From Betaproteobacteria bacterium (lineage in GTDB: Bacteria; Pseudomonadota; Gammaproteobacteria; Burkholderiales; SG8-39), in contig JAFARH010000246.1 of assembly GCA_019245555.1 (NCBI GenBank), positions 1 through 14,945 of the forward strand: a stretch of 14,945 nt of DNA, written 5' to 3'. Under the pieces are notes generated by a model. That model had not been told where the DNA came from and made no database searches. It worked only from the letters and a program-made list of their open reading frames with translations. Positions 9,955 through 14,851 of this stretch are shown here, in pieces. Positions within the stretch are counted from its first letter, which is position 1, and each line of letters opens with the position of its first letter. The translations under genes and the position numbers were made by a program.

Positions 9955-10170
9955 ATGCTCTCCTCCACCACTAGCAGCAAGACATTTCCCCCGGTCGGCT
10001 CGACCTGGAAGGACCTCGACCGGCGCGTGAAGCGGACCATCCAGGTCGTGCGCCTCGATGCGGACAAAAAGCGCGTGCGCATCCACTGCATCGAGACGGA
10101 CGTCCTCTCTTGGGCGAAGCCGGAGCGCTTCGGCAAGAGCGGCGGCTACATCCGCATTCAGTCCAAGTAA
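9955..10170 (+). CDS. Small hypothetical protein, basic, probably beta-rich
   Basis: Reading frame of 71 residues starting at ATG 9955, nine bases after the debranching-type gene and on the same strand. The core WKDLDRRVKRTIQVVRLDADKKRV then RIHCIETDVLSWAKPERF looks like a short beta-rich domain; the protein is basic (many Lys and Arg). Codon use is like the neighbours. I recall similar short conserved hypothetical proteins but cannot name a family. No good Shine-Dalgarno site is present. Its end overlaps the convergent HTH gene by 13 bases. It may be the tail gene of the GT4/debranching transcript. Moderate confidence that it is expressed. Confidence 0.6.
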   Translation: MLSSTTSSKTFPPVGSTWKDLDRRVKRTIQVVRLDADKKRVRIHCIETDVLSWAKPERFGKSGGYIRIQSK

Positions 10171-10418
10171 CGCCGCGAAGGGCCCGCCGCGTCGCGTGAC
10201 GGCGGCGGCTCCGCCTCGCCGTCGTTGCCGGCATGGCGCGTCTCGTCGAGGATCAGGTCGACGATACGCAGGAATACCTCGCGCGGCGGCTTCGCCTGGT
10301 CGGCAATCCACTTGTCGATCTCGGTGGTCGATACCTGCAATACCTTCGCAAGCTTTCCCCGTCCGCCGACGAGATCGGCGGCCCGGCTCAATGCTCTGCT
10401 GTAAACGCTGAAGCTCAT
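10158..10418 (-). CDS. Stand-alone YdaS-like helix-turn-helix protein (paralog 1)
   Basis: Small protein of 86 residues. Residues 5-59 form a compact helical domain: YSRALSRAADLVGGRGKLAK, then VLQVSTTEIDKWIADQ (recognition helix region) and PPREVFLRIVDLILDE. The pattern of a helix, a small-residue turn, LA-x2-L-x-V, then a W-containing helix and PP matches YdaS/Cro-type HTH domains. The tail from about 60 is Pro- and charge-rich, and looks disordered. It aligns directly with residues 21-75 of the gene at 10497-10745 and residues 12-63 of the gene at 10850-11878, so these are three paralogs on one strand. ATG at 10418 gives a clean N-terminus (MSFSVYSRAL); an 11-residue longer form from 10451 is possible. 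Likely DNA-binding or partner-binding regulator; the target is unknown. Confidence 0.72.
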   Translation of the reverse strand: MSFSVYSRALSRAADLVGGRGKLAKVLQVSTTEIDKWIADQAKPPREVFLRIVDLILDETRHAGNDGEAEPPPSRDAAGPSRRYLD

Positions 10419-10496
10419 GCGCCCATCATTCCGCAACTGGCCGCCGCGCACAATCGCTCCGCTCCCGACAGCGAAGCGCGAGAAATTCCGACAGTC

Positions 10497-10745
10497 CTAG
10501 TTGGAGCGCGTCGACTGGTCGACGTGGAGCAATACGATCTCGACGGCGGCGAGGAACACCATTTGCGGCACCTCCTCGCGCCCCTCGAGCCAAGCCTGCA
10601 GAGTGGCCTCCGGCACCCCGAGGTGCGAAGCGAGCTGCGCGGCGCCGCCGAGGATGAGGCACGCGCGATGCAGCGTGCGCGCCTGCGTGCTCTCGCGAGA
10701 AGGAGGCGGCGTCGGACACTCGGCTCTTGCTGCGGAGATGCGCAT
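10497..10745 (-). CDS. Stand-alone YdaS-like helix-turn-helix protein (paralog 2)
   Basis: Protein of 82 residues. A short Pro-rich leader is followed by an HTH domain at about 21-75: QARTLHRACLILGGAAQLAS, HLGVPEATLQAWLEGREEVP and QMVFLAAVEIVLLH. Shared positions with its two neighbours include the R-x-L-x-RA start, LA-x2-LGV, the Trp in the recognition helix, and VFL-x3-E. Located 78 bases upstream of paralog 1 and 104 bases downstream of the HTH-receiver gene on the same strand. The start is uncertain. ATG at 10745 is used here, but another frame (10819-10746) carries a plausible helical leader, so an N-terminal frameshift or a longer leader peptide is possible. Probable small transcriptional regulator; no target known. 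Confidence 0.65.
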   Translation of the reverse strand: MRISAARAECPTPPPSRESTQARTLHRACLILGGAAQLASHLGVPEATLQAWLEGREEVPQMVFLAAVEIVLLHVDQSTRSN

Positions 10746-10753
10746 GCCGCATC

Positions 10754-10786
10754 TTGCGATGACTCGAGGAGTCTCTCAAGTCGCAA
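10754..10786. promoter_or_regulatory. Nested inverted repeats upstream of HTH paralog 2
   Basis: An outer repeat TTGCGA (10754-10759) and TCGCAA (10781-10786) encloses an inner hairpin GACTC-gag-GAGTC (10761-10773). The element begins nine bases upstream of the ATG at 10745. It could be an operator or an RNA leader structure. Stems are short, so chance occurrence is possible. Confidence 0.3.
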
Positions 10787-10849
10787 AGTGGCATTCATTC
10801 TTGTCGGAATTTCCGCCACAACCTGCGGGAACGTCCTTTGCTCGCTTGC

Positions 10850-11878
10850 CTATTTCGCTCGACGCGAGAGCAGCTCGAGCAGCACGTCGACTGCGACCGG
10901 CTTGATGAGGTGGTGCGCGAAGCCTGCTGCGCGGCTGCGCTCGATGTCTTCAGGCGCCCCGTATCCGGTGACCGCAATGAGGGTCACGTCGGCCCCCCAC
11001 GGGGCGCGCCGGATTTCCTGCGCGAGCGCATGGCCCGACATATCGCGCAGGCCTATGTCGAGCACCGCGGCGTCGGGCTTGAGCTGTGCTCCGATGCGCA
11101 GCGCCGCCGCGCCGCTCGCCGCCTTATGCACCTCGTGTCCCGCCATGCGCAAGAGCGCCGTCAGCATGTGCGCGGAATCGGCGTTGTCGTCCACCACCAG
11201 CACGCGCAGGCGTTGCGCCGCCGCCTGCATCTGCACCGCCGCGCGCACAGCCTCGCGAAACTCGACCGCGGCCTTTTCCGCGCCGGCGCGGCTCTGCAGC
11301 TCGGGCAGGTCGATGAATGCGATTGCGCCGAGTGCCTCGCACGCCTCGCGCATGGCGGCGAGCGAAGGATCGCGCAGCGCGGTCGCGAGCGCCCGGCAGC
11401 CGATGAAGGGTATCGCCTGCGTCGGCCGGTAGGCCTTCACGCACTCCAGGAAGCGCAGCATCTGCGAGCCTTCGAAATGCAGGCCGCACACGATCGCATC
11501 GATGCGCCGATTGCGCGCGACGGCCGCGTTCTGCAGGAGATCGAGCGCCTCGGTGAGCGTGTAGACGGGCACCAGCGTGAATTCATTGCCCAAGACGAGC
11601 GCCAGTGCCGCGTAGCCCGCTGGATCATCGGCGATCAGCACCCTCCGGCGCCCGTCCGCGTCCGGGGCCGCGCTCGGTGCCGCCCGCTCGTCCAGCACGA
11701 CCTCGAGCACGCGCTCGAACACCGCTTCAGGCGGCGAGCCCTTGCCCGCGAGCCAGAGCGCCAGGTCGTGCGGATGCACGCCGAGCGAGTCGGCGAGCTT
11801 CTCCCGCGATCCCTTGATGGTCAGCGCGCGCTTGAGGAGGCGCGCTGAAGTCTGTGCATCGGGCCGATCGTTCCCCAC
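10850..11878 (-). CDS. HTH - pseudo-receiver - receiver regulator (paralog 3 fused to two REC domains)
   Basis: Protein of 342 residues with three domains. Residues 12-63 are a YdaS-like HTH (SARLLKRALTIKGSREKLAD, then SLGVHPHDLALWLAGKGSPP). Residues about 78-200 have the receiver fold with Asp84-Asp85, but the phospho-acceptor position is Cys131/Gly132 (AIVCGLHF) and the conserved Lys-Pro is absent, so it is a pseudo-receiver. Residues 223-340 are an intact receiver: Asp230-Asp231, phospho-acceptor Asp274 (AVLDIGL), Thr304 and Lys326 (IKP). The start is GTG at 11878; an in-frame TAG lies 12 bases upstream, so no longer form exists. HTH at the N-terminus and REC at the C-terminus reverses the usual response-regulator order. 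The receiver likely gates DNA binding upon phosphorylation by an unlinked kinase; this is inference. Confidence 0.87.
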   Translation of the reverse strand: MGNDRPDAQTSARLLKRALTIKGSREKLADSLGVHPHDLALWLAGKGSPPEAVFERVLEVVLDERAAPSAAPDADGRRRVLIADDPAGYAALALVLGNEFTLVPVYTLTEALDLLQNAAVARNRRIDAIVCGLHFEGSQMLRFLECVKAYRPTQAIPFIGCRALATALRDPSLAAMREACEALGAIAFIDLPELQSRAGAEKAAVEFREAVRAAVQMQAAAQRLRVLVVDDNADSAHMLTALLRMAGHEVHKAASGAAALRIGAQLKPDAAVLDIGLRDMSGHALAQEIRRAPWGADVTLIAVTGYGAPEDIERSRAAGFAHHLIKPVAVDVLLELLSRRAK

Positions 11879-11954: not shown

Positions 11955-12173
11955 CTACTGCTGCGGCCGCGGCCTCGGGCCTCGGGACTCAGGGATGCTC
12001 TGCTCGACCGTCGCGTCGAGGTCGATCTGGTGGCGGACGAACTTCGCGAGTGCCAGCGCGAACTTCAACCGGTCGACCGCAATACGCTCCGGAAAATCCT
12101 GAATCGCCAGCTGCAGCTGCTCTTCGATCTGCAGGAGCTTGCCCTTGATCTCCGGCGAGGGCGGCGGATACAT
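11955..12173 (-). CDS. Small helical protein of unknown function (tandem paralog B)
   Basis: Protein of 72 residues that I do not recognise. Residues about 8-53 are predicted helical and amphipathic: EIKGKLLQIEEQLQLAIQDF then PERIAVDRLKFALALAKFVRHQI. The tail (about 60-72) is Pro/Arg-rich and low complexity. It is clearly paralogous to the gene immediately upstream. Both share K-L-x-QIEEQ-x-QL, a Phe-Pro turn, and a second helix ending in (A/R)L-x-(K/R)-(F/Y)-(V/I)-R. Its ATG at 12173 lies two bases after the stop of that paralog, so they are co-translated. Two short helices joined by an FP turn suggest a small helical hairpin, perhaps a partner or dimerisation module. The function is unknown. 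Confidence 0.68.
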   Translation of the reverse strand: MYPPPSPEIKGKLLQIEEQLQLAIQDFPERIAVDRLKFALALAKFVRHQIDLDATVEQSIPESRGPRPRPQQ

Positions 12174-12175
12174 GG

Positions 12176-12382
12176 CTACACGCTGCGCAGGCGTGTGCCC
12201 GCTTCGCCATCGCCGGATTTCGGCAAAGTGCCGCTGCGTTCGGCTTCGGCGCGGATATAGCGCACCAGCGCGATGATCATGCGCTGGCGTTCCTTGGTCA
12301 GCGTCTTCGGGAACTCGGCGAGCGTGAGCTGCGCCTGCTCCTCGATCTGGTCCAGCTTCTGGTTGAACTCGTCGATGTCCAT
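12176..12382 (-). CDS. Small helical protein of unknown function (tandem paralog A)
   Basis: Protein of 68 residues without a recognised family. It starts MDIDEFNQKLDQIEEQAQLT (1-20), has an FPKTLTKERQR turn, and continues MIIALVRYIRAEAERSG. The two predicted helices and the QIEEQ-x-QL motif match the following gene at 11955-12173, so the pair arose by duplication. The tail after residue 52 is polar and probably unstructured. ATG at 12382 is chosen because residues upstream in the same frame are incoherent and cross the divergent promoter region. It diverges from the response regulator at 12545 across 162 bp holding a palindrome. Context (HTH-receiver genes downstream, receiver gene opposite) suggests a regulatory accessory role, which is inference only. 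Confidence 0.7.
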   Translation of the reverse strand: MDIDEFNQKLDQIEEQAQLTLAEFPKTLTKERQRMIIALVRYIRAEAERSGTLPKSGDGEAGTRLRSV

Positions 12383-12544: not shown

Positions 12545-12901
12545 ATGATGCAGACCCGTTGCGTACTGATCGTCGAAGACAACTTCGACCACGCGCAGAC
12601 GCTTTGCCTGTTCCTCGGCATGAAGGGGCATCGGCTCCAACATGCCCCGACCGGGCCGCTCGCGATCGAGATGGCGCGCCGCGTGCGTCCCGATGTCGTG
12701 CTCCTGGATATCGGGCTGCCGGGTCTCGACGGCTTCGAGGTGGCGCGGGAGCTGCGCCGCGAGCACGGCGACGCCGTGCGCATCATCGCGGTGAGCGCTT
12801 ATGGCAGCGATACCGACCGCCAGCAGTCCCTCGAAGCAGGATGCGAGCTGCACCTCGTGAAGCCGGCGGACCCGCGCTTCATCGAGTCCTTGCTCGGCTA
12901 G
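12545..12901 (+). CDS. Single-domain response regulator (CheY-like receiver)
   Basis: Receiver domain of 118 residues with no output domain. Key residues are present: acidic pair Glu11-Asp12, phospho-acceptor Asp55 in VVLLDIGLPGLDGFEVA, Ser84 in IAVSAYG, and Lys106 in LVKPAD. The sequence resembles receivers found as C-terminal domains of hybrid kinases, and also the receiver of the HTH-REC-REC protein nearby. As a free receiver it could be a phosphate shuttle or sink. ATG at 12545 is used; a second ATG follows at once (12548). No histidine kinase is in the window. Its TAG stop interlocks with the TAG stop of the convergent UbiD-like gene through the shared palindrome CTAG. Confidence 0.9.
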   Translation: MMQTRCVLIVEDNFDHAQTLCLFLGMKGHRLQHAPTGPLAIEMARRVRPDVVLLDIGLPGLDGFEVARELRREHGDAVRIIAVSAYGSDTDRQQSLEAGCELHLVKPADPRFIESLLG

Positions 12902-14470: not shown

Positions 14471-14851
14471 ATGGAGATGAAGGCTCTCCGCGTAGTCGTC
14501 GCCGACGACGATCCTGACACCGTGCTCAGCCTCCGGCTCCTGCTGGAGCACGAGGGGCACATCGTGCGGGGTGTGGAAAGCGGCGCTGAAGCGCTCGGCG
14601 CCGTGCGCGATTTCGGCGCCGACGTCGTGCTGCTCGACATCGGCATGCCCGGAATGACCGGCTTCGCGGTCGCGCACACCCTGCGCGAGCGCTACGGCAG
14701 CGCGAAGCCGCTTCTTATCGCGGTGACCGGGCGCAATGCGAGCGCCGACCGCTGGCTCGCGCGCAGCATGGGCTTCGACCATTACGTCGCCAAGCCCTAC
14801 AGTCCGAATGAGGTACTCGCCCTGCTGGGCGTCAGACGAGTTTCGAAATGA
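14471..14851 (+). CDS. Single-domain response regulator (CheY-like receiver)
   Basis: Receiver-only protein of 126 residues. Acidic cluster Asp12-Asp13-Asp14, phospho-acceptor Asp56 in VVLLDIGMPGMTGFAVA, Thr86 in IAVTGRN and Lys108 in VAKPYSP are all present, so it should be phosphorylatable. No output domain follows. It is similar in type to the receiver at 12545 and to the C-terminal receiver of the HTH fusion. ATG 14471 is used; ATG 14477 (giving MKALRVVV) is an alternative with GGAG just before it. It diverges from the UbiD-like gene, and its last 20 bases overlap the convergent partial gene. The partner kinase is not in the window. Confidence 0.9.
   Translation: MEMKALRVVVADDDPDTVLSLRLLLEHEGHIVRGVESGAEALGAVRDFGADVVLLDIGMPGMTGFAVAHTLRERYGSAKPLLIAVTGRNASADRWLARSMGFDHYVAKPYSPNEVLALLGVRRVSK

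Follow-up and report, generated by a model that had tools for sequence, protein, structure and literature searches.

A 14,945-nucleotide stretch of DNA from a Betaproteobacteria bacterium (assembly GCA_019245555.1, contig JAFARH010000246.1; the whole stretch is called the window here) carries three consecutive minus-strand genes with a YdaS-like helix-turn-helix (HTH) domain, one of which is fused to two receiver-like domains. This leads to the question whether the three genes arose by local expansion, with one copy coming under phospho-control and the siblings acting as heteromeric or competing repressors, as a sequence-only reading of the locus had proposed, or whether the fused gene has another origin and function. 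The explanation favoured here, with a probability of roughly 60%, takes the fused protein, HRR, for an orphan response regulator that begins with its HTH and carries tandem receivers of the PleD kind, as one element of a genus-specific toolkit of HTH and receiver genes.

HTH1 (10158..10418) and HTH2 (10497..10745) are stand-alone YdaS-like HTH proteins of 86 and 82 amino acids, and HRR (10850..11878) is an HTH-pseudoreceiver-receiver protein of 342 amino acids; all three genes lie on the minus strand. The HTH1 length refers to an ATG start, the open reading frame (ORF) itself opening further upstream at GTG 10451, and with the 86-residue start the residue ranges 5-59, 21-75 and 12-63 previously assigned to the three domains are right. 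Pairwise BLASTP comparisons of the domains gave 33% identity over 54 residues (E 6e-10), 40% over 53 (E 2e-12) and 43% over 53 (E 2e-11), each E-value applying to one comparison. With the own assembly as target, HTH1 retrieved HRR at E 1.3e-7 and HTH2 at E 1.8e-4, and HTH2 retrieved HRR at E 3.1e-6 and HTH1 at E 2.2e-4. The likeness among the three HTH domains exceeds chance, and the earlier description of three consecutive homologous genes stands. The best Pfam HTH match of all three is PF15943 (YdaS_toxin), with 26.9, 27.2 and 16.5 bits, which places the domains in one family, as had been supposed, and not in unrelated ones; none of the three reaches the curated cut-off of 30 bits. PF15943 was matched at E ≤ 0.01 by 34 of 34 rows of an HTH2 alignment and by 9 of 15 HTH family members. 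The three domains are YdaS-like, Cro/C1-type HTHs, not certified members of PF15943.

The AlphaFold2 models of HTH2 (mean pLDDT 88.7) and HRR both show four helices forming a Cro/C1-type helical bundle with a helix-turn-helix; in HRR the domain spans residues 8-66 (11681..11857, minus strand), with the recognition helix HPHDLALW. The nearest solved structures for the HTH2 model are Aca7, Aca2 and other Xre-type repressors, all weak matches with a best E of 0.11, and 434 Cro ranks 17th. A small lambda-repressor-like HTH is common to these proteins, the Xre/Aca repressors and the YdaS/Cro-type phage regulators (PF15943). Unlike the latter, the proteins studied here score below the cut-off, are found in up to 23 copies per genome, one of them fused to receivers, and lie in a setting in which neither phage nor toxin-antitoxin genes were seen.

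The receiver part of HRR was assessed in an alignment of 28 rows, comprising the window protein and 27 homologs chosen from the best 120 matches listed. REC2 (residues 224-340, 10859..11209, minus strand) is a canonical receiver that matches Pfam Response_reg at E 4.3e-20. Its residues D230, D231, D274 and K326 are kept in 28 of 28 rows and T304 in 27, the remaining row having Ser, and the residue set of a response-regulator receiver (acidic pair, phospho-Asp, Thr/Ser and Lys) is complete. REC1 (residues 79-216, 11231..11644, minus strand) gave no Response_reg match in Pfam. In the HRR model (mean pLDDT 83.8, pTM 0.54) it has strands at residues 79-83, 101-105, 128-132, 158-162 and 187-190 with helices between them, which is the receiver fold. 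The phosphosite position is occupied by Gly132, not Asp, in all 28 rows and lies within the motif C-G-x-(H)-F-E-G-S-Q-M (residues 131-140, 11459..11488, minus strand), of which C131, F135, E136, G137, S138, Q139 and M140 are invariant and H134 is present in 27 rows. Because of the receiver fold, Gly132 and the invariant flanking residues, REC1 is regarded as a strongly conserved pseudoreceiver. The two receiver domains of the sequence-only reading are thus one canonical receiver and one pseudoreceiver whose receiver fold is seen in the model only, and judged by its residues only REC2 looks functional. Phospho-control of the fused copy is plausible with these REC2 residues; that it was gained by a product of local expansion is not supported by the phylogeny described below.

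Tandem receivers are the best whole-model match of HRR. In PleD, one of the receivers is degenerate. Foldseek ranks 1-13 for the HRR model were all tandem receivers, with matches to 3mf4/3luf (REC-REC-GGDEF) and PleD (PDB 1w25) spanning 269-285 alignment columns. Unlike in PleD, it is the first receiver of HRR that is dead and the second that is the phospho-acceptor, and the output domain is an N-terminal HTH in place of the C-terminal GGDEF domain. A further structure comparison by VIA-align covered essentially REC2 and was uninformative on REC1 or the HTH. OmpR/NarL-type regulators, in which the receiver comes first, likewise combine a receiver with a DNA-binding HTH; compared with these, HRR has a reversed domain order, a different HTH family and an extra pseudoreceiver. 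Foldseek rank 14 was the hybrid kinase ShkA (6qrj), in which a pseudoreceiver lies directly before the active receiver, as in HRR. The pseudoreceiver of ShkA binds c-di-GMP, and its linker has a DDR motif (PMC7010744). HRR lacks the kinase core of ShkA, none of the 28 aligned HRR rows contains DDR, and the conserved REC1 motif comes after strand beta3 and is not at the beta5-alpha5 surface. Judged by title or start of abstract, no description of an HTH-pseudoreceiver-receiver architecture was recognised among the open-licence papers listed.

On this basis, HRR would consist of a Cro/YdaS-type DNA-binding HTH, a phospho-dead REC1 and a phospho-accepting REC2. D274 of REC2 would probably be phosphorylated by a kinase not found in the window, changing REC1-REC2 packing and dimerisation, and the altered dimer would probably place two HTHs on an operator, much as the tandem receivers of PleD act. 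Its conserved surface probably makes REC1 an adaptor for dimerisation or a binding site for a second input. HTH1 and HTH2 would probably be separate small DNA-binding regulators, each with its own promoter, which belong to the same genus-specific HTH family as HRR and have a different DNA specificity, and the cluster would be a place of gain and loss of HTH and receiver genes. Phospho-switched DNA binding by HRR, with the tandem receivers controlling HTH dimerisation, is the most likely function; phosphorylation, dimerisation, binding and crosstalk are steps that we infer, whereas the domain make-up with an intact REC2 and a degenerate REC1, the homology of the HTHs, their spread within the genus, their adjacency to receiver genes and the gene order are observations.

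The distribution of the genes was examined in 98 genomes of the family, 11 of which belong to the genus. HRR was found at E ≤ 1e-40 in two of the 98, both within the genus. The protein database yielded 499 HRR matches at E ≤ 0.001 (7999 best-sharing candidates scored), of which the best 120 are 57-100% identical, and a contig search gave three loci, one being a close relative and the other two having 27-29% identity. The HTH family was searched with an alignment (A2) built from the own genome and G077, which favours the genus. It occupies 114 places in 10 of the 11 genus genomes (0-23 per genome, 11 in the own genome) and one place each in 3 of the 87 genomes outside the genus (E 1.3e-11, 9.1e-5 and 7.9e-4). 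In a sample of the order with at most 14 candidates scored per genome, the family was present at E ≤ 1e-8 in 2 of 399 genomes, one of them the own genome. The Pfam YdaS model, used as an independent control, matched in 81 of the 98 family genomes, with 0-9 matches per genus genome (own genome 5, G077 9, G079 7) and four or fewer elsewhere. Outside the genus there was mostly one match per genome, in an ORF of about 505 amino acids; because the genus genomes have that ORF as well, these matches are not part of the small HTH family. The HTH expansion stands, yet less sharply by the Pfam YdaS model than by A2, and it is genome-wide and genus-specific.

Some HTH family members carry additional parts. 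A cysteine-rich, zinc-ribbon-like C-terminal part was seen by eye in four (L009:6867-7379 on the plus strand, L093, L112 and L115), and the minus-strand ORF 2924-4417 of L090 combines an HTH family member with a long C-terminal region that is GAF-like by eye.

The association of the family with receivers extends beyond HRR. A neighbourhood sample covered 87 loci with 109 HTH copies, 8 of 117 family places not being included, and the genus contains 711 Pfam receivers in about 34.6 Mb. A receiver was found within 600 bp for 22 of the 107 HTH copies not fused to one, against an expected 3.4. Four of the 22 adjoin HRR itself, and the other 18 share 15 receivers, 12 of these being encoded in ORFs of fewer than 200 amino acids and one being a pseudoreceiver. 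HTH copies adjoin separate receiver genes more often than expected.

Pseudoreceivers of the REC1 type also occur separately. An alignment search with REC1 gave matches at E ≤ 0.01 in 6 of the 11 genus genomes. In ten of the relatives outside HRR that were examined, the F-E of the HRR motif is replaced by F-D in every case, S follows two residues further on in eight, and the preceding His is present in six. When these ten were aligned with the two REC1 domains from the window and G077, the resulting alignment found matches in 7 of the 11 genus genomes and in 6 of the 87 other family genomes, where the best had E 9.5e-7; its strongest matches are its own rows, and the best one outside the alignment had E 1.6e-30. 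By this sequence comparison, stand-alone relatives of REC1 exist within the genus. None of the eight sequences scanned reached a Pfam cut-off, one of them matching Response_reg at E 0.13. At two loci (in G074 and G078) a stand-alone pseudoreceiver follows an HTH gene, and in G074 the two genes share a reading frame, separated by just one stop codon.

These neighbourhoods bear on the best-surviving alternative, namely that split response regulators are used across the genus, separate receivers binding and controlling separate HTHs, with HRR as the single-chain version. It is consistent with the 18 HTH copies not beside HRR that share 15 mostly small receivers, with the pseudoreceiver-HTH neighbours at two loci, and with HRR joining the same modules. 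Against it, 85 of the 107 HTH copies have no receiver within 600 bp on the stretches examined, and orientations are mixed, often divergent or convergent, so that co-transcription is not general. As an account of the family it is conceivable and clearly less probable than the reading of HRR as a response regulator in its own right.

That reading assigns HTH1 and HTH2 separate roles, and both genes have conserved features of their own. Upstream of HTH1 lies a promoter-like block, GCGATTGTGCGC ... TTGCGGAATGAT ... ATG (10418..10457, minus strand), in which TTGTGC - 17 - AATGAT resembles a promoter by eye; it is largely common to five of the six HTH1 loci aligned, G078 departing from it. HTH2 is preceded by a 34-nucleotide element, GCGACTTG ... 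TCG ... GAT (10751..10784, minus strand), which has a constant length in five of six HTH2 loci (window, L036, L077, L087 and L107) and is absent in G078. Conserved upstream sequence particular to each gene in five of six loci suggests separate promoters, and the 34-nucleotide element may be an operator or a leader hairpin. For a structured leader before HTH2, the z-scores of the five sequences folded (-2.26, -2.01, -1.01, -0.25 and -1.34; G078, which has no element, was left out) are too weak to support the claim. Seven of the 106 HTH copies have the word GACTTGAG in their upstream stretch, and three of these seven do not belong to the aligned HTH2 loci. In the proteins, the C-terminal tail of HTH1 (consensus PPxRDAAGxSxRYLD) and an N-terminal peptide of HTH2 (consensus DCPxPPPSR) are conserved. 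In most HTH1 homologs a variable linker leads to a conserved terminal tail of the RYLD type, located at 10158-10170 (minus strand) in the window, which suggests a docking or turnover signal.

Binding sites were sought in the upstream stretches of 106 HTH copies. A palindromic operator proposed by eye, TGTCGG(N3-9)CCGACA, was not found as an exact match in either the window or the own genome; TGTCGG is no commoner in the window than by chance, and beyond the window it is about as frequent upstream of HTH copies (15 of 103 stretches) as downstream (14 of 101). A family-wide operator was rejected as well, the top words being mostly those of orthologous loci, either of HTH1 (GATTGTGCG) or of HTH2 (GCGACTTGA); a search for gapped palindromes in the 106 stretches gave nothing strong. 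Two words are spread over several HTH groups and are commoner upstream than downstream or at random places: TGTCGGG (8 of 103 upstream stretches outside the window, none of the 101 downstream ones on that strand) and CATTGAC (7 of 103, none of 101). Picked from all 7-mers, with an excess uncorrected for that choice, they may be parts of operators or promoters.

When the HTH1, HTH2 and fused groups are compared with one another, the recognition helix shows the least likeness of all segments, with a mean identity of 0.22-0.35 between groups and 0.54-0.71 within them. Because the recognition helices differ most, HTH1 and HTH2 probably use other operators than HRR, which weakens the earlier proposal of competing repressors at one operator; for HTH2 versus the fused HTH the margin is small (0.35 vs 0.37).

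Several observations weigh against a phospho-switched HRR within a genus-specific toolkit. A Pfam scan covering 20 window ORFs named a kinase family for none of them, so that no partner kinase was found. The tandem-receiver matches have TM-scores by query of only 0.30-0.37 and an rmsd of 8-13, from which it follows that the domains match and the arrangement does not; relative domain placement thus compares poorly with PleD, and the placement in the HRR model is itself unsure (pTM 0.54). From fold and family only we infer that HRR binds DNA, the HTH2 model has no match in the Protein Data Bank at E ≤ 0.001, and the upstream word and palindrome searches established no operator common to the HTH family. 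The recognition helix is the least conserved segment also within HTH1 (0.54), and in HTH2 it is about as little conserved (0.63) as helix 2 (0.64); as the helix varies within these groups, part of the difference between them may be plain variability. The HTH-receiver adjacency has a binomial p of 2.5e-12, which is too optimistic because orthologous loci were counted separately and because the expected number derives from Pfam receivers and the receivers in the loci from a different model.

The local tandem expansion with which the analysis began is unlikely; under it, receivers were added to one of the copies, which now forms heterodimers with its two siblings or competes with them at shared operators. 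Three homologous HTHs do lie side by side, and in G077 an apparent true local duplicate of HTH1 was found (support 97/74). A quick tree of 106 rows guided the choice of 41 for a further tree, based on about 64 columns, in which the fused HTH joins four stand-alone HTHs of other loci (support 100/94) and not HTH1 or HTH2, the three copies of the window forming three separate orthogroups. A clade of the fused HTH with both HTH1 and HTH2 was rejected (AU p=0.003); the fused HTH with HTH2 was rejected at p=0.022, and with HTH1 p was 0.058, which is not rejected. Of the sister copies, those in G074 and G078 nearly share the recognition helix of HRR (HPHDLALW, HPHELALW) and those in G076 and G077 do not. 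The differing recognition helices also speak against shared operators. The BldM-WhiI heterodimer (PMC4125116) is a precedent for heteromeric regulators. BldM and WhiI are both response regulators with receivers, unlike the receiver-less HTH1 and HTH2.

Gene order leads in the same direction. In G076, G077 and G079, as in the window, HTH1 and HTH2 come after a GT4 glycosyltransferase gene, a debranching-enzyme gene and a small ORF, in this order. HRR adjoins HTH2 in the window, and in G077 an extra HTH1 copy lies between them. G076 and G079 keep the flanking genes and the HTH2-HTH1 pair and have no HRR at the locus, its place in G076 being taken by a receiver gene. The pair occurs in five other genus genomes in all (G072, G076, G077, G078 and G079); in G072 and G078 the debranching or GT4 gene was not found on the short stretches examined. 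In support of a local association, HRR and the HTH genes occur together in other genomes and metagenomic contigs, as the sequence-only reading had anticipated. Contigs of identical size (at least 1500) were paired among the best 120 matches per gene, gene order not being visible by this method. Same-size contigs numbered 15 for HRR-HTH2, 16 for HRR-HTH1 and 12 for HTH2-HTH1, against averages of 0.6-1.0 and a largest value of 5 in size-shifted controls; of the 104 HRR contig sizes, 28 are found again for HTH1 or HTH2, and one of these 28 (14945) is that of the window. VE085_02725 and VE085_02730, with locus tags five apart, are HTH2 and HTH1 of one metagenome-assembled genome and apparently neighbours.

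Further genes accompany the cluster. Two tandem, mutually similar proteins of 72 and 68 amino acids are encoded at 11955-12173 and 12176-12382 on the minus strand; the 68-residue protein adjoins the HTH cluster also in G076, G077 and G079 and the 72-residue one in G076 and G077, and for the former Pfam shows only a sub-threshold coiled-coil match. Stand-alone receiver proteins are encoded on the plus strand at 12545..12901, near the cluster, and at 14471..14851, and it is a relative of the latter, 68% identical, that occupies the place of HRR in G076. An additional HTH gene, from a different orthogroup, is present in G076 (L087 3513-3674) and G079 (L107 4473-4634), flanked by UbiD and the gene for the 68-residue protein; in the window this place is taken by a receiver gene. 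The cluster locus looks like a hotspot for the turnover of HTH and receiver genes.

Turnover of this kind could also be expected if the HTHs were mobile or prophage-derived Cro-like leftovers without coordinated function, clustered at insertion hotspots. Phage-type repressors are among the best matches, and copy numbers range from 0 to 23 per genome at a locus type that gains and loses HTH genes. Against this, HTH1 and HTH2 stay beside the debranching-enzyme gene in three other genomes with their upstream blocks and tails conserved, and in the Pfam scan of 20 window ORFs no phage or toxin family was matched above its cut-off, in agreement with the earlier remark that no such gene is present; weak matches to families with viral names were seen in two ORFs (E 0.078 and 0.19). 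Neighbours that could be named include glycosyltransferases, a glycogen debranching enzyme, UbiD, receivers and other cellular genes, and neither a prophage immunity region nor a toxin-antitoxin setting is found at the window locus. The leftover explanation is therefore considered doubtful, slightly more so than local expansion. The Pfam name YdaS_toxin would suggest that the HTH of HRR resembles a toxin or an antitoxin, which is very improbable: it would fit the sub-threshold PF15943 matches and the treatment of YdaS as a toxin in two papers from 2017 and an author reply (PMC5700373, PMC5700377, PMC5917430), yet no toxin-antitoxin partner was named by Pfam among the window ORFs scanned, and it has been argued in a published letter (PMC5917428) that YdaS is a phage regulator of the Cro type and that its toxicity is merely an effect of overexpression.

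A broader and still tentative idea is that the genus built a signalling toolkit of three modules, these being YdaS-like HTHs with up to 23 detected copies per genome, new pseudoreceivers of an F(D/E)xS type with the motif after strand beta3, and ordinary receivers. The genes for these modules would either be neighbours, forming split response regulators, or be joined into one as in HRR, receiver and DNA-binding parts being mixed by gene neighbourhood and not by covalent linkage. If true, this would document a phage-type repressor domain that expanded in one lineage and was joined to two-component signalling, and it would point to an unannotated pseudoreceiver family with a ligand or partner to be found. 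With a fused gene next to split HTH and receiver genes, the assembly of new response regulators would become directly testable.

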